The notes beneath the pieces were generated by a model that was not told where the DNA came from, made no database searches, and saw only the letters and a program-made list of their open reading frames with translations. From IMG/VR virus record IMGVR_UViG_3300038457_000284, positions 1 to 41,855 of that record: a stretch of DNA of 41,855 bases. The stretch is one strand, 5' to 3'. The translations under genes were made by a program, and so were the position numbers. Numbering within the stretch: the stretch's first letter is position 1; every line of letters starts with the position of its first letter. The stretch is from a virus. Positions 679 to 41,855 of this stretch are shown here, one piece after another.

Positions 679-3600
679 TCAACCCCTGCTCCAGTCAAAG
701 TCCACGGTAACGTCCTCAGATCCACCCCCGCTAGAGGTCGGATTGGACACGGTTATGGCGGCGCTGGCGGTCAGACTGGAATCGGCTACAGAGGTCGCCG
801 TGATGGTGTGACTTCCTGCCGTCGACGGGGAGGCATAAAGGCCCGTCGCATCGACCATTCCGACCGTGCTATTTCCACCCGCCACGCCGTCCACACTCCA
901 GGTCACGTCAGTGTCTGATTCTCCAACCACAGGGGCGCGGAATTGCTGGTATCCGACGCTAGCGATTAGCGTCGCGGCAGTGGGGGTAATGGTGATACCT
1001 GGAGCCGGTGATGACATCTCTGAGGAAACTATGCGCGCACCCCAGAAAATTCCGAAGACCATCGCGTCTCCATTCCAGGAGCCAATCGCTTGAGTAGTCA
1101 GCCCCGTTGCGTACGGGCCGGTCCATTTCATCCACAACTTATAAGAGGTATCGAGGTAACAAGAGGTCACTCCATCCACCTGCGAGCCAGAGACCCACGA
1201 GTAGCCGCCAAACGGTGCTTCGCCAGCAGCGGGAGTCCCTACTGTGCCAAGACTACGAGGCGAGGCAATTGTATTAATTTTTGTAGCGCTGGCGGCCACG
1301 GCAGGAACAGGCAATGTTTGTCCATGGGAGAGCCGCACCAGTCCGACGCCAAGGATACTCGAAGTAGTGTCAGCCACGGTCATCCATGAGCCGCCGGTTA
1401 CGTCTGTTACAGTGCACGCGCCGGAGTTGTTTTGCCATGCGAATACGAGCACCTGCGCGCGGCCGCTCCAGGTCGATCCGTCGGTTCCGACGAACTGCAT
1501 GTGTACCACGGAATCAACCCAGGTCTGGAAGCCGTGCGCAGACACAGGAGGTATCCAGTCACCAATGCCACCACTCCCCCAGTGACCCACCGGAGTATAG
1601 CCGCCATTGTCATAAGGCGAGCTAAACGTAAACATCTTGTCGGGGGTGAATCCTTCCGGCAACCCAAAGGCATCCCCATCCGGGACTATGCCCTGCCCGA
1701 AGCAGATGATCTCACCGTTCGACAAGGTAATGATCACATAGGTCATCGGCCCCACAGTGACAACCGTTCCATTGCTCCAAGCCAGCGCTGCGTAATTGAC
1801 CTCACCGCCCCATCTATTCACGCCGTCAGAGTACTGGAGAGTGGTACGAAGAGCCGCGTTTACGGAACACAACGGGATGGTAAGGAGTGGGCCATCCAGC
1901 TCCGGCAAGCTTCCACCTAAGATACCAGGCCCCGGATGGGTGCCAATCAGGTACCCTCGCGGGCTTGCCCAGCTCAACACATTTGCGGGGGGATAACCGA
2001 TGCTTGGAAGTGGGAAAGCAGAGCCGCTCGGGAGCGCGCCACTGATAAATGCTAAGCTTCCGCCGTCTATGGTTGCGCCACCAGTGTAACCCGACTCGTT
2101 ACCGGGATCGCTTCCAGGCACATCCACCCAGCCGGCCTCGGTGTTACTCGACGAGTCGTAGAGACACGCCTCGCTGTAGGGTCCGAGGATGATTTCCATT
2201 TCGAGCGAATCTTCGGCAGCGGTGCGTGTCATCACACCCTTGCTTAACGCCGAAGCACCGGAGGAGCGGATCGTCGCATCGATAAACTCGTAGTCACCCG
2301 CGTAAGGGACGTTTGCGGTTGTATCCAACGTGATCCGGTCGCCTGGCTTCAGTGCTGCGGCCAGGTTGCCATTCACATCGCGAGCAAAGAACGGAATTAC
2401 CACAGAGCCAGAAGGCGGAGTTACATAGGGTGCAACGTCCTGGCCGAGCGCGCGATCGCGCTCATACATCACAATGCGCGCTGTCTGGTCATAAGTAAGA
2501 ACGGAGAGATCCAACGTCTGAGAGACTTTCTTCTTCTGGGCAGCAATGCCGAGCCCAATAGCTCCGCGTGCAAGCTGGTTCTGGTTATGCTGAAACGCGG
2601 GTGCGCGCTCTTTAAATCGGGAGTAGATCAGTCCAATCGTTCCGCCGGCCGGTCCGTCAGTGGCGTAATTCGATCCCTTCCCGACGAGGGTCATGGTATA
2701 TACCTGAACTCCCGCAGCAATCTGATCTGCGGTGAGAGCAGGGACATAGCCCACCGCCCAGTAACCGTCGTAGGGTACACCTTCGCCGCCGATCACAATG
2801 TCGTCGTTTGCCTGACAGGGATGTCCAAGCTCGGTCGTAACGACCGGGTTCGTCCCGCCCGTGATAGAGGCAATCGTTGCGCAGGCCGGAATCAGCAGGT
2901 CGCGGAACTTTCCGATGAAACGGTTGGCGCTGGTGTGGAGCACCTCATCGCTCGGTTCAAACTTCTGCGTGTGGTCGCGCGAGATGATAAACGTGCTCGC
3001 CCGCGGCTGATCGCAGATGAGGTAGATCTTGCCCGCGTATTCATGCATGTGGCTGCGGCACACCAGCAGCATCTGTTCCAGGATGGCGTTCAGCGTGGCT
3101 GCCGAGGTGAAACAGTAGTTCCCGGTAAAGCGCCTTCTGCCGTTAGCCAGGAGCTGATCGAAGTAAATTGCCGACGCCGTGATCGATGGCCAATCAAAAC
3201 ACGCGGCCTCTGCGGCTGTCAGAGGGGTAGGCCCGTTATTTAGGTCGATGTTGTAATCGGGCTTTATTTTGCGGGCAAGACACGCATCGACAATATGCCA
3301 AGCCGGATTCGTGGTGAACGCATACCCGGTTTGGTTGCCGTTAGAATCGAAAAGCCGCACGCGGCGAGCGCGCCAGAGGCCAATCGGCGCGACATCGGCC
3401 CATTGCGATGGGTCGTTCTGGTGCAGAGAGCTATCGATGATGGGGTACTTGATCGAGAGCGCGTAATAAGCGATCCGGTTGTAAGTCAGAGGCTGGACGC
3501 CAGGAGGAAAGTTCTTCCACAACGAATCAACGCCCTGATCTGGCCCAACTGAGGCCGGAGCTAGTCCGGAGCCGATCACCGAGTCCGCTCCGCGATGGAA

Positions 3601-3900
3601 GTGGAACTGCCACGGGTTATCGGAGGGAGGCGTGTAGAGGGGAGGGTAGCTTGGGCTCCCTGTTTCCGAGGTGTAAGTCAGGACATCGTTGATCCACAGT
3701 TCATTGCAGCCATCCCACTCGCCTTCTCCTAGCCCCCAAAGACCGATACGGGTGAAATCCATATCGGAGGTTCCCGTGTTTTGTAACTGGGTATAGCCGA
3801 GGCGTTTTCCTGTGACCCACTGATAGCCGTAGGCCAGCGCAATCGGCGAGCCGCTGGTGTCTGCCGATGAGATCTGCTGAGTTGTGCTGGCGTTCGGCAC
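679..3900 (-). CDS. Tail tip / central hub protein (J-like) with C-terminal Ig-like domain
   Basis: At 1073 residues, and the last large gene of the tail cluster, this fits the receptor-contacting tail tip of a siphovirus. The N-terminal ~350 residues (IALAYGYQWVTGKR start, GLWGLGEGEWDG, then a section with AILEQMLLVCRSHMHEY and KIYLICDQ) resemble hub domains of phage tip proteins. The middle is Gly/Ser-rich beta-type sequence. The last ~110 residues carry a bacterial Ig-like (BIG2-type) unit with VTWSVDGVAGGNSTVG and ITATSVADSSL. That signature is common in secreted proteins of Acidobacteriota and would serve surface binding. The start is GTG at 3900 behind AGGAAGG, touching the stop of the preceding gene. 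The tip role follows from position and length; the Ig-like domain is seen directly. Confidence 0.78.
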   Translation of the reverse strand: MPNASTTQQISSADTSGSPIALAYGYQWVTGKRLGYTQLQNTGTSDMDFTRIGLWGLGEGEWDGCNELWINDVLTYTSETGSPSYPPLYTPPSDNPWQFHFHRGADSVIGSGLAPASVGPDQGVDSLWKNFPPGVQPLTYNRIAYYALSIKYPIIDSSLHQNDPSQWADVAPIGLWRARRVRLFDSNGNQTGYAFTTNPAWHIVDACLARKIKPDYNIDLNNGPTPLTAAEAACFDWPSITASAIYFDQLLANGRRRFTGNYCFTSAATLNAILEQMLLVCRSHMHEYAGKIYLICDQPRASTFIISRDHTQKFEPSDEVLHTSANRFIGKFRDLLIPACATIASITGGTNPVVTTELGHPCQANDDIVIGGEGVPYDGYWAVGYVPALTADQIAAGVQVYTMTLVGKGSNYATDGPAGGTIGLIYSRFKERAPAFQHNQNQLARGAIGLGIAAQKKKVSQTLDLSVLTYDQTARIVMYERDRALGQDVAPYVTPPSGSVVIPFFARDVNGNLAAALKPGDRITLDTTANVPYAGDYEFIDATIRSSGASALSKGVMTRTAAEDSLEMEIILGPYSEACLYDSSSNTEAGWVDVPGSDPGNESGYTGGATIDGGSLAFISGALPSGSAFPLPSIGYPPANVLSWASPRGYLIGTHPGPGILGGSLPELDGPLLTIPLCSVNAALRTTLQYSDGVNRWGGEVNYAALAWSNGTVVTVGPMTYVIITLSNGEIICFGQGIVPDGDAFGLPEGFTPDKMFTFSSPYDNGGYTPVGHWGSGGIGDWIPPVSAHGFQTWVDSVVHMQFVGTDGSTWSGRAQVLVFAWQNNSGACTVTDVTGGSWMTVADTTSSILGVGLVRLSHGQTLPVPAVAASATKINTIASPRSLGTVGTPAAGEAPFGGYSWVSGSQVDGVTSCYLDTSYKLWMKWTGPYATGLTTQAIGSWNGDAMVFGIFWGARIVSSEMSSPAPGITITPTAATLIASVGYQQFRAPVVGESDTDVTWSVDGVAGGNSTVGMVDATGLYASPSTAGSHTITATSVADSSLTASAAITVSNPTSSGGGSEDVTVDFDWSRG

Positions 3901-5410: not shown

Positions 5411-8400
5411 CGCCCACCCCCGAGTACTCGGCTAAGCTCGCATTCAACGCCGCGCGGACGTGATGCTTGTTATCCATGAACATGCGCGCAGTGGTCTTCG
5501 AATCCAGCGACTGGAAGTTCATATTGACCGTGCGACCCCCGCCGCTCCCCGAGCGCGCGCTAGCCGATTGCATCGTGCTCTGGTAAGACTTTGCAACCTG
5601 ATCCATCGACGCTCCTGCATTCAGCGACTCCAACGCCGAGCGGTTCCGCGCCGCCACATTCGGCTTCACCATGAACTCGCCGATCTTCGCGTGCACCAGG
5701 CCCTCATCCGGCGAGGTGGCCAGGTTGCCGAAGTTATCGACCGCGCCGCCGGTGTGGTACTGCGCTGCCGACGCCGTGAACTGACTGCGCCCGGCAGTTT
5801 CCTCGCGGGTAAAGTTTGCCTGCGCACTCGATATGGCCGGCTTAATTGTGTCGCGATAATAGCTGCGTCCACCGAAGCCCATGGCCGAGGTGGTATGCAG
5901 CGCCTCGCCTTGCAGCGTGCTCATGTCCTGATAGGCGGACATGTAATCGAGGGTGCCCGTCGAGAAGGCGTGTGTGTCCTGGTCGATATGGGGCTTAACG
6001 TTCTTGTTGTAATACGTCTCGGCCGTGCTTCTTCCGCCGAAGCCCATGAAACCCATCACGCCGCCCGCGATCGCGCCCACCGCCGCGCCGTACGGGCCGC
6101 CCAGACTCATGCCGAGCTGCATTCCGCTCGCCGCGCCACCCAGTGCTCCAGTGACGCCGCCCTTGCCTGCGAACGCGCCATAGAGTCCCATCGCGCCCTG
6201 CACCGCGCCCGCCGCGCCAGGGCCAGAGGACGCGGAAGGGTCGCTCATGTCCACCTTCGTATTGTTGGACGAGGAGTAAGAGCCATCATCGACAGAAGTC
6301 GGGTGCGCAAACGCGCTCTTCGCTTGGCTATAAAGTCCTGCTGCTCCGCTGAGGTCGCCCATCGCCGCCATCGGCGAAGAAGGAGAGGAGTCCGCTCCAG
6401 CAAACGCTGCAGGGGAGCCGCCAATCTCAGCGTCGCGTTCACCGCCGCGAGTACTGCTGATGCCGGTGATAGCGCCGTCAAAGGTGGAAGCTGCGCCAGA
6501 GCCATGAGGAGAGGAAGAACGGCTGAAGCCGCCGCCTTCATAACCGGAGCCTCCGCCAGTTGTGCTGCCGCCCGCGCCCGTAATCGAAGCCGAGCCAATC
6601 TGAATTGTTGCTGTGCTGATCGAGAGCGAGCTTATGCCTGCTACATGCTCGGCAGCGGCCGCCGCGCCAGGCATATTCGGAATGTTTGGAACGCCACCGC
6701 CCGCGCCGTGCTTGCCCTTGCCGCTCCAGAGGCTGCTGAAGAGCGTGCCAGGGAATCCACCTTGCGACGTGCTATCCGCGCCCTGCGTATGCTGGCCGGG
6801 GAACTGCTTCTGCACCTGCATCAGCGCCGCCGCCGCAGACTCGGACATCATATGCGTGCCCAGGTTCTTGAAGTACGACTGGGGATTCTTAAACAAACCT
6901 TCGAGTTGGCCCGCGAGCTTGTCCTGCGTCTCCTTCGCCTGGGTGCGCAGCTCGGCGTTCAGGGTTTTACCGGCAGCAGCCACGCGACGGTCGTAATCGT
7001 CTTGAGAGATGAGCTGATCTTTCAACATCTGCCCATATCCACGCGTGCGCTCTGCGTACTGGTCGTACAGCTCTTGCGTCTTCTGCTGCTCGACAGGGAG
7101 AGAGCGACGGCGCGCCTCATCCTCAAGCTTGACGGTCTCATTCAGGTTCTTCGTGGTGAGGTCGAAGCCCTGCTTAGATGCGTCCGCGTTGACCTTCCCA
7201 ATTGCCGAGTTCAGCCCATCCGTTCCCTGAGCTCTCCGTGGGTCATTCGCCTTCAGGCCACCGTAAAGCTTGTCGTACTCCTTTGTGAGTTCAGCAACGT
7301 GGTTCCTCGTCTCCACCTGAATCCGCGCGAATCCCTGCTCCTGATGCGTGTTCCATCCATCCACCAACTGATTCAGGTGCTCGTAATAGGTTCCCTGCGT
7401 AGCCGCGTCTTCATTCGCGTGCTCGGTCGACAGAGCCCCGAGACGCTGCGGAAGCTGATGGATCTCGGAGGTTTTTCCGCTTGCGATCGCATCCCGAATT
7501 TCTTGGTTCTGCTTCAACTGAAATGCCGCGTCGGAATGGGCGAGTCCGGTCAGGCCGCCGGTCCGGGCTTCGTCCATTCTCTTCTGAGTCGCGCGCCCAG
7601 CTTCTTCCTCTTCGCGCTTCAGGTTCGCGTAGTAGCGCCGGTCGATGGCAGCGAGCGCAGCAGCGTTGGTGCCATGATGCAGGACGTATTCTTTGGCGGC
7701 TTGTTCTTTCTGCTGATAGGCGAGCCGGTCGCCGCGCACACCTGCGTTATCCGCTTCGGCTTGAAGGCGGGTAATCTCTTCGCTCTCGGTGCGGGCCAGT
7801 ATGGTCTTTTTCGCGCTTGCCTCTGCCTGCGCCGCCCGCGTAGCCGTGTCCGCCTCGGCCTTTCCTGCATCCTTGCTCGGGGTATTGCCATAGAGCGAGT
7901 CTTGGCGGCGCGCCCAGTCCTGATTTTCTTTGATGATCGCCTTCTGCTTCTCTAGCTCAGCGGTGATCTTCTGCTGCGGGCGTAGGGAACTATCTCCGGC
8001 GTGGTCCGCCTCAATTCCAGAGACCCTCTGCTTATGCTGCTCTTCGGCGAGCTTCAACCGGAGGGCGTCGGCAGCCGCGCGCTTTTTCTGTTCGTTATCC
8101 CGCGCCTCTTTGGCTGAAGAGATGTTCTCGAAATCGACCGCATCGCCCTGGAGCTGCTTATTGGCCTCGGTGTTATATTTTTCGGCTTCCTGCGTTGCCT
8201 GGCGCAGACGTGCAATCGTGGTCTCGATGGAATGAACGTTTCCGAACTCATCGTCTTTGTGCTTGGCTTGCTCGGCGTTGTACGCCTCCAACGCGCCGTT
8301 TACATTAAGGTGCGCGTTGTAGAACTCCTTCGCCTCGCGGATCGCCATGCCGAACATGCTGATTGCGGCAATGCCTATAAAAACGCCGCTCAGCGAAGAC

Positions 8401-33145: not shown

Positions 33146-33333
33146 TGGACGTGCTCGCTCCCTACATCTGCACCTGGTGCGGTGGAATGCGCGGGTACTG
33201 TCACCACTGCGGCGCGGCGGTGCACGCCGATGAGTTCTTCCCAGGTGTGGGCTGTGTGGTCTGTAACGAACGCGTGAGGTGGTCTTTGATTGACGCAAAA
33301 ATGAAACGCGAAGGAACTGAGGGGCTGCGATGA
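33145..33333 (+). CDS. Small double zinc-ribbon protein
   Basis: A 62-residue protein with CTWCGGMRGYCHHCGAAVH and CVVCNERVRW, that is CxxC, CxxC and CxxC within 45 residues. It overlaps the previous stop by one base and the dnaB start by four. The location immediately before the helicase gene suggests a replication accessory role, which is inference. Confidence 0.55.
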   Translation: MDVLAPYICTWCGGMRGYCHHCGAAVHADEFFPGVGCVVCNERVRWSLIDAKMKREGTEGLR

Positions 33334-34703
33334 GCCACACTGATCACTCTCTCGATCGCGGCCTTCCCGCCAGTCCGGAAGCCGAGCGCTCCATCCTAGG
33401 CGCGATCCTGCTCGACAACACGCTCCAGAACGAAGCGCTCTCGACGCTGCGCTCCGAGCATTTCTTCCTCGACTCGCACCGCCGCATCTATCAGCGCATC
33501 GCCGATCTCTCCGAGAGCAACCGGCCCATCGACATCGTCACCCTCACCGAGGAGCTGCTACGGCACAAGGAACTAGAATCCATCGGCGGCGCCGGATACC
33601 TGGCCTCGCTCACCGATGGCGTGCCGCGCCGCTCGTCGGTTGAGCATTACGTCCGCATCGTGCGCGACAAGGCGATCCTGCGCAACCTGATCCACGCCGC
33701 CAATGGCGTGATCTCGCAAGCCCTGGAGCAGGCCAGCACCGCCGCCGAAGTCATCGACGCGGCCGAGTCCAGCATCTTCAATATCTCCGACGAGCGCAGC
33801 GGACAGCAGCTTACCGATATCAAGACCATCGCGCTGGAGTCCTTCGGCGGCGATCTCGACAAGCTCTTTCAGCGCGGCGGCCGCATCACCGGCCTGGAGA
33901 CTTACTATCCCGATCTCGACGACATGACCAGCGGCTTCCAGAAGTCCGACCTGATCATCATCGCCGCGCGCCCCTCGATGGGAAAGACAGCCTTCGCCAT
34001 CAATATCGCCGAGAACGCCGCCATCCAGGGCGGCAAGTCTGTTGCCGTCTTCTCGCTGGAGATGGCCAAGGAAGCGCTGCTCAATCGCATGTTGTGTTCG
34101 CAGGCCCGCGTCGATGCCCATAAGATGCGCACCGGCTTCCTGCCTCGCGAAGACATGGGCAAGCTCGCCCGCGCCCTCGAAACGTTGACTGCAGCGCGGA
34201 TCTACATCGACGACACGGCCGGGATCTCGTTGACTGAGCTGAGGGCCAAGGCTCGCCGAAAGGCGATGGACAAAGAAGGACTCGACCTGGTCGTCGTCGA
34301 TTACCTGCAACTGATGTCTGCTTCCGCACCTGGTGGACGCCGTTATGAGAATCGCACTCAGGAAGTCTCGGCCATCTCGCGCGGCCTGAAGGCGATTGCG
34401 AAAGAGTTGAAGGTACCCGTGGTCGCGCTCTCGCAATTGAGCCGCGCTCCGGAGACGCGCGGCAAAGACACCGAGCCCAAGCTCAGCGATCTGCGCGAGT
34501 CCGGCTCCATCGAGCAGGACGCCGACATCGTCATGTTCCTCTATCGCCCCGAATACTACGACCGCGACAATCCCGAGCTGGAAGGCAAAGCGAAGCTGAT
34601 CGTCGCCAAGCAGCGCAACGGCCCCACGGACACCGTCCAACTCGCGTTCATTAAAGGCTCGACGCGCTTTGAAACGCTGACAAGAGAGGAGTGGCTCTCT
34701 TAA
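33330..34703 (+). CDS. dnaB: Replicative DNA helicase, DnaB family
   Basis: A 457-residue hexameric 5'-3' helicase of standard bacterial length. The N-terminal DnaB domain is intact (PASPEAERSILGAILLDN, IGGAGYLASLTDGVP). The RecA-like motor has Walker A ARPSMGKT (residues 213-220), H1a VAVFSLEMAKE, Walker B LVVVDYLQLM (Asp324), H3 VPVVALSQLSR with the conserved region RESGSIEQDADIVMFLYRP. It is closer to a chromosomal DnaB than to a trimmed phage helicase. Mu relies on host DnaB recruited by PriA-dependent restart, so an own helicase is unusual. The start is coupled by ATGA to the previous small zinc-protein gene. Confidence 0.92.
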   Translation: MSHTDHSLDRGLPASPEAERSILGAILLDNTLQNEALSTLRSEHFFLDSHRRIYQRIADLSESNRPIDIVTLTEELLRHKELESIGGAGYLASLTDGVPRRSSVEHYVRIVRDKAILRNLIHAANGVISQALEQASTAAEVIDAAESSIFNISDERSGQQLTDIKTIALESFGGDLDKLFQRGGRITGLETYYPDLDDMTSGFQKSDLIIIAARPSMGKTAFAINIAENAAIQGGKSVAVFSLEMAKEALLNRMLCSQARVDAHKMRTGFLPREDMGKLARALETLTAARIYIDDTAGISLTELRAKARRKAMDKEGLDLVVVDYLQLMSASAPGGRRYENRTQEVSAISRGLKAIAKELKVPVVALSQLSRAPETRGKDTEPKLSDLRESGSIEQDADIVMFLYRPEYYDRDNPELEGKAKLIVAKQRNGPTDTVQLAFIKGSTRFETLTREEWLS

Positions 34704-37100: not shown

Positions 37101-37772
37101 ATGCGCATCCGACCGCTGCCCCTTCTTGTCTTCATCCTCGCGCTGTTGACCTGCGCCCAGCACGCCTATGCGACCTGCACCGCGCCCACCGGCTACAGCA
37201 ACTTCACCTTCGTCAATCTGATGGATGGGGGCGCACCTCTCACTTCGGGACAACTCGCGGTCGTGGGCACAGGCTCCAGCGGAAATCCTGTCAACTACCA
37301 CATTGCCGCCTCCAGCGGCGGCGTGGGTGGCCTGGACGCCATTCCTGGGACGATTACCGATGGCGCGCTGAACGGATGCCTCTATCTGCCCGACTCTGCG
37401 CTATCCGGCATTCTCTACACCATCACGGTGCAGAATACCGGAGCGCTGAGCGCGCAAAACAACGTGGTCGATGTGACCGGCGTCTATGTCACCGGCGCGA
37501 ACTTCAGCTTCGACGCCTACGCCTTCCCCGGCAGCGCGGCGCAGCCCGCGACGCCGGATCAAATCTCGATCGGCACGGTGACCACCCTCGCGCCCGGCGC
37601 TTCGGCCACCGCGTCGATTACCGGATCGCCTCCGCTGATGCAGTTGAATCTCGGCATACCGCAAGGAGCTCCAGGCTCCGGCGGCGGCAGTGGTTACGCA
37701 TTCAGCGTCAACGGCACAACTATCAGCAGCTCGGTAAGCGGAGCTTTTTCGGTCAACGGGACGGTGATCTAA
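37101..37772 (+). CDS. Exported fibre-like protein with signal peptide
   Basis: A 223-residue protein. Residues 1-24 are a typical Sec signal (RIRPLPLLVFILALLTC, AYA before the mature start). The mature part resembles phage fibre/adaptor sequence: NFTFVNLMDGGAPLTSGQLA, DGALNGCLYLPDSALSGILY, then a fibre-like TASITGSPPLMQLNLGIPQG followed by a Gly/Ser linker. The C-terminus has AFSVNGT twice. No Shine-Dalgarno site precedes the ATG at 37101. Its stop overlaps the next ATG by one base, tying it to the large fibre gene. Signal peptides are unusual on virion proteins. Confidence 0.68.
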   Translation: MRIRPLPLLVFILALLTCAQHAYATCTAPTGYSNFTFVNLMDGGAPLTSGQLAVVGTGSSGNPVNYHIAASSGGVGGLDAIPGTITDGALNGCLYLPDSALSGILYTITVQNTGALSAQNNVVDVTGVYVTGANFSFDAYAFPGSAAQPATPDQISIGTVTTLAPGASATASITGSPPLMQLNLGIPQGAPGSGGGSGYAFSVNGTTISSSVSGAFSVNGTVI

Positions 37773-40420
37773 TGAAACGACTTCTCGCAGGGATACTCTT
37801 TTTGTTCTTCGCCGTCGTGATGCAGGCGCAGAACTTCAACGCCTCAGACACCACGCCAGCGGCCCCGACAGGCGGGTTTAACGTCCATTGGCAGAACGAC
37901 TCCAGCTCGCCGCGCAACTTCTCTGCCTACATTCCAGCCAGCACGTTTCTAGGTTATGGTCTGTTGACCACTAAGGGCGATCTTCTCGGTTTCGGGTCGG
38001 CTCCTGTTCGGTTTCCGGTCGGCGCTGATGGGTCGTGCATAGTCGCAGACTCAACGCAGGCGCTCGGTGTCAAGTGGAGTTCATCGTGCGGCGGCGGCGG
38101 CGGCGGGAGTTTCACGGCGGCGGGCGATCTTAGCGGATCGAGCACGACACAACAGGTCATCGGGCTCAAAGGCGTGGCTCTACCTCCCCTGGGCGCTGGC
38201 TACCTCCACTACAACGGAGGGTCATTTGTCTTCGACACTCCGTCAGGAAGCGGCGGCACAGCCGTTACACAAGCCCCCGGTGATACCAGCACCGATATAG
38301 CAACAGACCAATTTGTGATGTCCAATGCTGCAGTGGGCGCGGGCGGAGGCGTGTGGCAGCGCGCCGGTACAGTGATGACGGGTCTTGCCAGTGAGGGATA
38401 TGCGGCGCAGGAGCCCTCCGTGATCTACGAGGGGAGCCCGCAAATCCTTACCACTGACACCAGCGTTTTCAAGATGTGGTGGACGTGTGGATGGTCAACA
38501 GGGCAAGTCTGCTATGGAGAATCGCCGGATGGACTGACCTGGACGCGGTACTCGGGTAACCCGGTAATCGGCGGCGACCATGAACATGGTCACGTCATGA
38601 AAAACGGGAGCACCTATTACTACTATGGGGCCAACGCACCTCTGGGCGGATCGGCGTTCGATCAGTACACGTCAACGAATGGCGTTACCTGGACTCTCGC
38701 ACATTCCGCTGTTCTCTCTGTCGGAACCACGGGCGCATGGGATGGCACGGGGATGGGCAACATCAACGTGTGGGTCGAGGGCTCCACCTGGTACGCACTC
38801 TATGAGGCTTGCTGCACGAATGGCGATTGGGAGAGCGGACTGGCAACCTCCACGGACGGAGCGGGCGCGGTCTGGACAAAATACTCAGGCAATCCGATTC
38901 TCACCAGTTCAACGACTTCACGGAGCGACCCGCACGCCTACAAAATCGGCGGGACGTACTACACCTGGTTGCACAGTGGAGCGAACCCAGGAGGGCTGCC
39001 GACTGATATCTATTTCACCTCCACGACCAGCCTGACTTCGTGGACAGCGGCCGTCACGGACGTGTTCCCACGCGCGACATTTGATGAGGGCGCGAACAAC
39101 CCGAACGGTCAATTAGCCGATCCCGATTTACTGGAAGTGAACGGCAACACGTATATGTTCTATGACGCCGATCAGACACAGATTCCCGAGGCTGGTTATC
39201 CAGGCAACATCCACATCAAGCTTGCGATTGCTCCGATGACGATGGCCGCGCTAGTACAGACCAGGCAAGGAGCGGGCGCGGTGTTTGGTGGCTCCAACAC
39301 ACAGGCGAGTGGGAATATGGGCGCAGTACAGTTCAGCGCCCCTAGCATGGTGACGAGCTCCCCAGACTTCAACTGGAATCAAGTGGGTGATTGGCTACAG
39401 CTCACCGGAAATGCCAATACGAGCTACCCGAGTGTCAGCGGGGCTCCGTTGACGCTTGGTGTTTATGGTCAAGCTGGGCAAGACTACGGATACATTGCTT
39501 TTAACGGGAGGAACACAGCGGGAGGCTACACCGGAGCGACGCAAATATGCAACATTGCAACAAGTAACAGTTCTGGCGGGTGTAGCTTGAATATGTCTGC
39601 GACCAACGGGACCTCCACTCCTGCTTGGGGAATAGCGGGAGCTGCGACTCCATTCTGGAATTTCTTTTCACCTCTTGCCATCCCGCTAACCTTTTCAGCG
39701 TCGGGGACAGGCACTAAAGACACCGGGCTTTCTCGAACGGCTGCCGGATCAGTCGCGGTGGGGAACGGGACGGCAGGAGATGCTAGCGGCACCTTCACTG
39801 CAGACCAGTTCTGCCTTGGATCAGCGTGTATCACCACATGGCCTAGCGGGAGCGGGCCTGGGTACTTGGCTCTTACAGGTGGCACGATGACTGGGCCAAT
39901 AACTGCGCCGGATGGTTCGGCTTCCACACCAGAATATGGGTTTTCTTCTGGTGGCGGGCTGTGGGGACGTGGCGGATATACCACCTTGTTAAGCGGGGCG
40001 ACCAGTATATTCTTTGGAACCTCCGCGAATGCCTCGCAAGCCAGCATCGCAACTAGCGGCACTGGCACCTATGCGATGGGTTCAAACGGTGCAATCTCTT
40101 GGACGAATAGCGCCGGGAACGCTAATTCCAGTATGGACACAAGCACTTCTCGTTGCGCGGCAGGAATTGTTTGCATCGGGACAGGGGCATCAGGTAGCAC
40201 GTTAGGCGTTATCGAAGCCGCTGCCTTTCTTCCGGGCATACTCTACAGCGCAGCGGGAACCCCGGTGCCAACATGCGCCTCCGGAATCAAAGGGCTGACC
40301 GCAGTAGTCGGCGACGCGACCTCACCTACTTACATGGGAACCTACACAAGCGGCGGCGGCGTCACCGTTCCGGTTGTGTGTAGTTACAACGGCAGCGCCT
40401 ACGCGTGGCTGACCAATTAG
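37772..40420 (+). CDS. Exported tail-fibre-like protein with glycosidase-type beta-propeller
   Basis: An 882-residue protein. It begins with a Sec signal (KRLLAGILFLFFAVVMQA, cleavage expected before QNF). Residues ~65-185 carry fibre motifs familiar from phage tails: LTTKGDLLGFGSAPVRFPVG, VADSTQALGVKW and PGDTSTDIATDQFVMSNA. Residues ~190-490 resemble the five-bladed propeller of glycoside hydrolases such as GH43/GH32-related enzymes, with repeated blocks (KMWWTCGWSTGQVCYGESPD, GLTWTRYSGNPVIGG, VWTKYSGNPILTSS, ADPDLLEVNGNTYMFYDADQ). The C-terminal ~250 residues return to fibre type (LALTGGTMTGPITAPDG). A role in recognising or trimming host surface glycans is likely. Catalytic residues cannot be assigned by eye. 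Confidence 0.72.
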   Translation: MKRLLAGILFLFFAVVMQAQNFNASDTTPAAPTGGFNVHWQNDSSSPRNFSAYIPASTFLGYGLLTTKGDLLGFGSAPVRFPVGADGSCIVADSTQALGVKWSSSCGGGGGGSFTAAGDLSGSSTTQQVIGLKGVALPPLGAGYLHYNGGSFVFDTPSGSGGTAVTQAPGDTSTDIATDQFVMSNAAVGAGGGVWQRAGTVMTGLASEGYAAQEPSVIYEGSPQILTTDTSVFKMWWTCGWSTGQVCYGESPDGLTWTRYSGNPVIGGDHEHGHVMKNGSTYYYYGANAPLGGSAFDQYTSTNGVTWTLAHSAVLSVGTTGAWDGTGMGNINVWVEGSTWYALYEACCTNGDWESGLATSTDGAGAVWTKYSGNPILTSSTTSRSDPHAYKIGGTYYTWLHSGANPGGLPTDIYFTSTTSLTSWTAAVTDVFPRATFDEGANNPNGQLADPDLLEVNGNTYMFYDADQTQIPEAGYPGNIHIKLAIAPMTMAALVQTRQGAGAVFGGSNTQASGNMGAVQFSAPSMVTSSPDFNWNQVGDWLQLTGNANTSYPSVSGAPLTLGVYGQAGQDYGYIAFNGRNTAGGYTGATQICNIATSNSSGGCSLNMSATNGTSTPAWGIAGAATPFWNFFSPLAIPLTFSASGTGTKDTGLSRTAAGSVAVGNGTAGDASGTFTADQFCLGSACITTWPSGSGPGYLALTGGTMTGPITAPDGSASTPEYGFSSGGGLWGRGGYTTLLSGATSIFFGTSANASQASIATSGTGTYAMGSNGAISWTNSAGNANSSMDTSTSRCAAGIVCIGTGASGSTLGVIEAAAFLPGILYSAAGTPVPTCASGIKGLTAVVGDATSPTYMGTYTSGGGVTVPVVCSYNGSAYAWLTN

Positions 40421-40427
40421 GAGATTT

Positions 40428-40706
40428 ATGCGAACACTGTCAGCTGTCCTTTTGTTTAGCATCTTCACGTTTGCGGCTGTACCAACCGCTCCAACCGCTC
40501 CGACGATCACGCCCGAGATGCGGGCACAATACTGGCGAGCGCAAGCCGAAGCGATGGCGGCGGCGAAGCGTGCGGAAAACGCTAACACCAAACTGCAAGG
40601 TGCACAGGCTGAGATGGTGAAGGCTTGCGGCGATCTCCAGCTCATCGCTGGGCCGGATGGCGAGCCTACGTGCCAAGCGAAGCCAGAAGCAGCTAAGGCG
40701 AAGTAA
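40428..40706 (+). CDS. Small exported coiled-coil protein
   Basis: A 92-residue protein with AGGAG 5 nt before the ATG. Residues 1-18 form a signal sequence (RTLSAVLLFSIFTFAAVP), then a Thr/Ala/Pro linker, a charged helix (MRAQYWRAQAEAMAAAKRAE) and a Cys pair with CGDLQLIAGPDGEPTC. It follows the fibre gene by 7 nt and is cotranscribed. It could be a fibre partner or chaperone, or a periplasmic spanin-like protein. The function is open. Confidence 0.58.
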   Translation: MRTLSAVLLFSIFTFAAVPTAPTAPTITPEMRAQYWRAQAEAMAAAKRAENANTKLQGAQAEMVKACGDLQLIAGPDGEPTCQAKPEAAKAK

Positions 40707-40739: not shown

Positions 40740-41855
40740 TTAAGCGTCGGCGGCGGCGGCAATCGCCATGGTCTGAGACCGATTCAATCGCTCGATGACC
40801 ACCGCTCCCAACGCCTGACCTGGCAATTCCACCAGTCTATAGGTGGCGTATGCGATGAGCGAAGAAACGCCCACGCACCCCACGAACTTCAGCGCCAGAT
40901 CGGCGGTTGCAATCGGAACAATGGGTCGCGCAAACACGCGGGCAGCGAAGTGCAGGACGGCGAAATGAACCAAGTAAAGTGAGAAGCTGAGCTTGCCAGT
41001 GAACACGGTCCAACGGTTGACGAGTATTCGAGTGGGGTAAATAGAAAGGCAATAGGCCATGCACGCAAAGCCTACAGAAAAGGAAACATTCTCAGGGATT
41101 CGCGTGGTGATGTGTTGTCCAACAACGACCAGCGCAGCAATGCCGAGCAGCGGGGTGGCAGCCGAAGCCGCGTCGTACTGGCGGTTTTGGACGCATCGAT
41201 ACAAAACCAGTCCGAGGCAAAAGACAGGCAACTGACTGGGCAAGAAGAGGTGGAGATATTCTCCCCACATTCGCGGGTCTCCGATGGGTCCAAAGGAGTG
41301 AAGCAGGCTCCCGGTGATAATGGCCAGCATTGTCGTAGCGAAGAACAGCCTGCAGGCGCGGCCGGCGGAATTGGTAAATCCCATGAGAAAAGGCAGGAGA
41401 ACGTAAAAGCTCATTTCGACCGCAATCGACCACCCACCAGGAACAGTGCTGTTGATCCATTGCGAATGAAATCCACTTACGAAGAAGACCGTCGAGGCGA
41501 TGTTTGCGGCGGTGACTCGGGGCGCGTCGCCGAGCCAGTAACGCGCGCCAAGACCGTCTTGCCACAAGTAGTAAGCCAGGGCGCAGTAATACAAGGGAGC
41601 AATGCGAAAGAATCGCCGGATGAAGAAGTTCCGCAAGGGCTCGCCGGCCCTTCCGTGCAGCGACATGGCAACGGTGAAAGCGCTCATCACAAAGAACAAC
41701 TGAACGCCCAAGGAACCATGATCCGCGATCCGCTGAACGGTACCCGGAAGCTGCGCGGTGATGAGAAATTGGGGGACGTGGACCAGCATTACCGCGAGAA
41801 CAGCCCAGCCGCGGAGTGCGTCCACGTAAGCATACTTTGTGGGCTCGGTTGCCAT
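40740..41855 (-). CDS. Membrane acyltransferase, acyltransferase-3 (OatA/OafA-like) family
   Basis: A 371-residue integral membrane protein. The family signature is at the N-terminus (YVDALRGWAVLAVMLVHVPQ) with the conserved Arg and His, followed by SLGVQLFFVMSAFTVAMSLH. About ten hydrophobic segments follow, including FVVSGFHSQWINSTVPGGWS with the motif near AVEMSFYVLLPFL. These enzymes O-acylate surface polysaccharides; phage-borne members change the host O-antigen and block rival phages. The ATG is at the last base of the window, so its ribosome site lies outside it, or at 7-11 if the ends join. It converges with the exported cassette across a 33-bp gap. Confidence 0.85.
   Translation of the reverse strand: MATEPTKYAYVDALRGWAVLAVMLVHVPQFLITAQLPGTVQRIADHGSLGVQLFFVMSAFTVAMSLHGRAGEPLRNFFIRRFFRIAPLYYCALAYYLWQDGLGARYWLGDAPRVTAANIASTVFFVSGFHSQWINSTVPGGWSIAVEMSFYVLLPFLMGFTNSAGRACRLFFATTMLAIITGSLLHSFGPIGDPRMWGEYLHLFLPSQLPVFCLGLVLYRCVQNRQYDAASAATPLLGIAALVVVGQHITTRIPENVSFSVGFACMAYCLSIYPTRILVNRWTVFTGKLSFSLYLVHFAVLHFAARVFARPIVPIATADLALKFVGCVGVSSLIAYATYRLVELPGQALGAVVIERLNRSQTMAIAAAADA

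Follow-up and report, generated by a model that had tools for sequence, protein, structure and literature searches.

A prophage cassette of fibre-like proteins with predicted Sec signal peptides, and a candidate class of exported phage fibres

The window analysed here is the whole of a 41,855-bp IMG/VR virus entry from a Mu-like phage of soil bacteria. Three adjacent genes, g1, g2 and g3, form a plus-strand cassette at the far end of the early arm of this prophage (Table 1); the MuA- and MuB-type early genes (25.4-28.4 kb) are on the plus strand as well. The minus strand carries a repressor, terminases, portal, head protease/capsid and a lambda J-like tail protein, so the cassette does lie opposite the structural genes, as the preliminary description had it. 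The g1 stop at 37772 is also the g2 start (a TAATG overlap), and g3 starts 8 bp past the g2 stop. This architecture can be read directly from the sequence. Converging on the cassette at the record edge is an acyltransferase-3 / O-acetyltransferase gene, either a phage moron or a host gene and possibly a serotype-conversion gene. A DnaB-type replicative helicase gene (33330-34703) has Acidobacteria DnaB as its nearest relatives (~52% identity), which indicates an acidobacterial host. The record starts exactly with a stop codon and ends (41855) exactly with a start codon; both ends coincide with gene ends, which makes trimming at gene boundaries probable. ORF 1-675, the first, reads as a dUTPase, and three 36-nt direct repeats lie at 448-555. 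Contig L007 (3300037240_000152) encodes a MuA that is 100% identical over residues 1-529 and is apparently the same phage in a second metagenome sample. Apart from L007 and the contig L003, almost nothing came up when g2, g3 or MuA was used to look for close relatives.

Table 1. Features of the cassette and selected genes of the window
Feature	Position	Strand	Remarks
g1, predicted exported N-terminal fibre-like protein, 223 aa	37101..37772	+	predicted SP 37101-37172
g1 minor-tail/collagen-like motif, res. 146-206	37536-37718	+	PHROG minor-tail families
g2, predicted exported chimeric fibre, 882 aa	37772..40420	+	predicted SP 37772-37828; 14 mature Cys, 7 local pairs
g2 ordinary phage-fibre N-terminal sequence, res. 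24-102, directly after SP	37841..38077	+	DTTPAAP..NVHWQ..SAYIP..TTKGDLL..VGADG..GVKW
g2 beta-propeller, GH43/GH32/GH130 type, res. 262-472	38555..39187	+	scores under Pfam cut-off
g2 C-terminal tip module, res. 835-882	40274..40417	+	invariant Cys pair C835, C870
g3, predicted small exported A/E/Q-rich protein, 92 aa	40428..40706	+	predicted SP; Cys pair (67, 82)
lambda J-like central tail fibre, the phage's ordinary candidate receptor-binding protein	679..3900	-	strand opposite cassette
acyltransferase-3 / O-acetyltransferase	40740..41855	-	converges on cassette; record edge

The usual assumption is that phage fibres are produced in the cytoplasm and mounted there. The preliminary description nevertheless assigned Sec-type signal peptides (SP) to three consecutive genes here, and we confirmed the three ORFs and predicted an SP in each. 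The calls come from a home-made score of the n-, h- and c-regions and are predictions. All three N-termini have a basic n-region, a hydrophobic core and a plausible SPI site, with cleavage predicted between MRIRPLPLLVFILALLTCAQHAYA and TC in g1, MKRLLAGILFLFFAVVMQA and QN in g2, and MRTLSAVLLFSIFTFA and AV in g3. The g1 score is the highest among all ORFs of the window, and g3 passes too; g2 has a typical h-region (mean hydropathy 3.4) and an imperfect -3 residue. We considered g1 as a lipoprotein (LLTC) and rejected this, the lipobox being imperfect and the SPI site AYA/TC preferred. By the same score, 12 of 149 non-adjacent ORFs in related phage loci are SP-like, and given this background of ~8%, three SPs in a row are unlikely by chance (~5e-4). 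Among adjacent ORFs the proportion is 6/25, against 12/149 for the non-adjacent ones (p 0.027), a weak sign in the same direction.

The claim that the first two genes contain phage fibre motifs held up. Residues 146-206 of g1 match the PHROG minor-tail families phrog_6614 (2.8e-6) and phrog_4120 (1.5e-4), and in L135 the g1 domain sits behind an SP, fused to a weak esterase-like domain and a g2-type tip module (35% identity, 8e-12). The motif is also present in acidobacterial secreted, collagen-like proteins; the g1 matches in 396 Acidobacteriota genomes were tried as relatives and discarded as host collagen-like secreted proteins with one motif in common. In g2, the matches are to minor tail proteins of Microbacterium phages (3e-5) for residues 24-102 and to Burkholderia phage Bm1 for residues 832-877. 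The mature g2 start resembles that of an SP-less fibre in L176 (5884-6729) that is coupled to a J-like gene, so g2 resembles an ordinary fibre that has had an export signal put in front. The g2 propeller scores 24.4 and 28.3 bits against Pfam PF04616 (GH43), short of the gathering score of 32.2, and the alignments at the GH43 catalytic acid/base residues are weak and partial. It has secreted cellular homologues in Acidobacteriota genomes; considered at one point as cassette relatives, these g2 matches turned out to be cellular secreted propeller enzymes. Structure prediction gave a pLDDT of 34 for the propeller, an unusable model, and 66 for the tip module, whose model had no fold match at E <= 0.001.

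A single homologue of g3 was found, in the unrelated phage contig L003 (7995-8276; 39% identity, E 1e-10), with both cysteines kept. It lies directly behind an SP-bearing fibre with an SGNH-esterase domain; the gene ahead of that fibre carries what we take, by inspection, to be a T7-like fibre N-terminus. Looked for elsewhere, the exact order of the three genes was not found; an SP-bearing fibre paired with g3 occurs once more, in L003. In 396 Acidobacteriota genomes g3 gave weak matches only, none convincing on inspection. In L152 and L153, SP-bearing fibre-like genes stand in a row ahead of a gene for a small exported coil-like protein, and in L152 an endolysin gene comes next. The resemblance to the window cassette is one of layout.

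The tip module is the last 48 residues of g2 (...PTCASG...DATSPTY...GGG...PVVC...NG...W). It had no matches among Pfam and NCBIfam models and is present in ~100 IMG/VR loci and in Bm1. A first scan returned 26 IMG/VR loci with a clear SP at the ORF start in nearly all; the module proteins of Bm1 and of a Methylobacterium plasmid also have an SP, and the g2 tip region is 61% identical over 94 aa to an SP protein in L133. Because one first-scan pattern contained Cys, we ran a second scan with patterns that did not require it, and this returned both Cys-pair and pair-less forms. Of the non-redundant relatives, the 20 in which both cysteines of the module are present all carry an SP; among the 28 lacking the pair, 4 do (Fisher ~1e-9). 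For the second scan by itself the figures are 12/12 and 4/27 (p ~5e-7); the counts were made after clustering and with the L293 start corrected, and the p-values are optimistic, the sequences being related. L297, the same protein as L151, has only a weak SP and is not in these counts; scored as SP-less, it would change p to ~7e-9. In the alignment of the pair-less modules, three residues are missing at the position of the first Cys, and Phe mostly stands in place of the second. L158 and BcepF1.012, which have no SP, have none or one of the module cysteines. Fibres found by the N-terminal motif alone scored as SP-bearing in 7 of 78 cases, some of them spurious. The co-occurrence of SP and Cys pair, and its recurrence across phages, are visible in the sequences themselves.

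Four SP fibres, L261, L265, L266 and L267, have the tip module without its Cys pair. We judge them presumably Bacteroidota-like; such lineages may use few disulfides, and the four proteins could serve as a natural control for them. In L138, a P22-like contig, the gene directly after the major capsid gene (5731-6141) encodes an exported 136-aa protein that is almost only the Cys tip module. We did not find the module in 392 acidobacterial genomes with a query that recovers 5/5 positive controls.

In disulfide-forming bacteria, exported proteins favour even cysteine numbers (PMC7678975). The mature cysteine count is even in 20/22 SP proteins versus 6/20 SP-less relatives. Both g1 (26, 93) and g3 have two mature cysteines, and the 14 of g2 fall into seven close pairs, nearer than random placement would give (p 2e-4). 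The SP thus co-varies with the Cys pair and with even Cys counts, which fits transfer to an oxidising compartment and disfavours the suggestion, made in the preliminary description, that the signals are uncleaved anchors. We infer Sec export, signal cleavage and disulfides from these patterns, which are strong comparative evidence, though not proof, that the SPs work and that the proteins are exported and fold with disulfides.

The genes of relatives are found in sipho-, podo- and myovirus-like contigs, among genes for tape measure, portal, capsid, connector, tail tube and baseplate or, in L136 and L152, beside lysis genes. Their positions within clusters are scattered: after the capsid gene in L138, after the tape measure in L135. 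The SP gene of Bm1 (60.1-63.1 kb) has small hypothetical genes around it and lies far from the annotated tail fibres and the fibre assembly protein (24.7-30.1 kb); the SP protein is therefore not the only fibre of Bm1. This protein is WVR18150.1, and its signal would be cut at VLA/QN. J has the same role in the window phage as these ordinary fibres in Bm1. The early-arm and acidobacterial setting first proposed thus describes the window, where the cassette does end the early arm, but is too narrow for the class, which is also found in structural clusters of various virion types and in the cultured phage Bm1 of Burkholderia. Hydrolase-like domains recur (the propeller in g2, SGNH in L003 and L135, a beta-helix in L154), and several members have no recognisable enzyme domain.

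These observations suggest fibre-type proteins redirected to the cell envelope, away from the virion. The Sec SP ahead of an ordinary fibre N-terminus would direct export and then be removed, and the mature chain would be locked by local disulfides, one of them at the C-terminal tip. g1 may be a separated N-terminal or collar part. The shaft, with its glycosidase-like propeller, and the tip would come from g2, and g3 would be a small exported partner. We consider the chances evenly balanced that this is a dedicated Sec-exported, disulfide-bonded fibre class spanning several virion types, whose export-specific tip arose from a cytoplasmic fibre tip by gain of the Cys pair, and which acts on the host envelope in trans or is added to virions only once the cell has lysed. 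Phage receptor-binding proteins would then have a second way of being deployed. Probably the exported fibres act on the envelope or surroundings of the infected cell and are not built into the virus in the usual way. From the periplasm, from the surface or after lysis, they could bind or trim host glycans; phage receptors would be masked or removed, so that the lysogen or infected cell would exclude related phages and progeny would not be trapped on debris. That Sec-exported fibres, some of them hydrolase-like, work on host envelope glycans in this manner is a tentative proposal to which we give somewhat less than an even chance, and receptor masking or stripping is offered as a hypothesis only. 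In favour of action at the envelope, the phages that carry such genes have ordinary fibres as well (J in the window phage, annotated tail fibres in Bm1), hydrolase-like domains recur and an O-acetyltransferase gene adjoins the cassette. Against it, many relatives are in structural clusters, which fits a virion part, and the fibre N-terminal domain is kept after the SP. No outer-membrane anchor is evident in the cassette proteins, which leaves surface display unexplained.

The ordinary fibre N-terminus and the many genes in late clusters make mounting after lysis the main rival: the fibres would be exported, oxidised in the periplasm and mounted on tails at lysis, yielding disulfide-hardened fibres. 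Without its signal g2 would start like the L176 fibre, and many relatives are in tail or head operons; yet Bm1 and the window phage already have ordinary fibres or J, and the scattered cluster positions look more like those of inserted cargo. To our knowledge no tailed phage assembles its fibres in this way, and we regard the idea as unlikely. Next in probability, and likewise unlikely, is an adhesin of lysogenic conversion, which would give the lysogen a new surface property (attachment, biofilm or glycan use) like the mosaic adhesive trimer (MAT) fibres of Bdellovibrio. Exported fibre-like proteins displayed on cells are known (PMC10769870), the g1 motif is common to acidobacterial secreted proteins and the cassette lies at a prophage end beside an acyltransferase. 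That the module was not found in the 392 acidobacterial genomes, by a query that found its controls, and the occurrence of relatives in late operons and in a phage isolate argue the other way.

We think it improbable that the proteins are secreted depolymerases only, that is, free hydrolases released at lysis to clear exopolysaccharide, with the fibre parts serving just for trimerisation. The propeller, SGNH and beta-helix domains would suit such enzymes, but the members without a recognisable enzyme domain would not, and catalysis by g2 is putative. Very improbable, finally, is a lack of export. On this reading the signals would be anchors that stay uncut, or wrongly read starts, on ordinary virion fibres; or else a misplaced prophage edge would have drawn in host genes. 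The SPs are predictions only and the record ends at gene ends, suggesting trimming; set against this are the co-occurrence of Cys pair and SP, the even Cys counts, and the homologues of g3 and of the module in phage contigs.

The exported fibre class thus appears to be real and recurrent. SP-bearing fibres with the Cys pair in many unrelated viruses back the initial view of the cassette as a candidate undescribed system, and the class is apparently undescribed: the literature searched, mostly papers available without subscription, gives no account of tail fibres with an SP as a group of their own. If the reading is right, the host envelope is one more destination to which phages send fibres that bind receptors or cut glycans. 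This could account for some cases of receptor masking and of superinfection exclusion, and many metagenome genes annotated 'tail fibre' would not encode virion receptor-binding proteins. The exported-fibre idea is open to test in a cultured phage, Bm1.

Ordinary tail fibres and minor tail proteins (L176, Microbacterium phages) have in common with the cassette the TTPAAP/TTKGDLL-type N-terminus, the PHROG minor-tail motif and the modular enzyme/tip layout. They have no SP and lie in the tail operon, whereas the cassette has an SP on g1, g2 and g3 and lies on the plus strand at the end of the early arm; some of its relatives, unlike the cassette, are inside tail operons. Tip-module relatives without an SP lack the Cys pair that g2 has. 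Fibre-borne depolymerases and esterases, such as Arthrobacter phage esterase/tail fibre proteins, likewise carry a hydrolase domain on a fibre (SGNH, as in L003), but cassette-type fibres differ by their SP and disulfide-type cysteines. The MAT fibres of Bdellovibrio bacteriovorus are exported and phage-fibre-like (PMC10769870). They and the cassette proteins are alike in features: both are phage-fibre-like with an SP and mosaic tips and act, or in the cassette's case would act, outside the cell. MAT fibres are chromosomal in the predator and many end in an S74 domain, whereas the cassette is phage-encoded, with a Cys-pair tip module. In MAT fibres a conserved beta-rich domain of ~130 aa directly follows the SP; in g2 a phage-fibre N-terminus stands there. 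T4 Spackle gp61.3 is a small exported phage protein with a cleaved SP and a periplasmic action (PMC7650644). It is comparable to g3 in size and in its SP, predicted for g3; Spackle inhibits the tail lysozyme gp5 and has no fibre partner.
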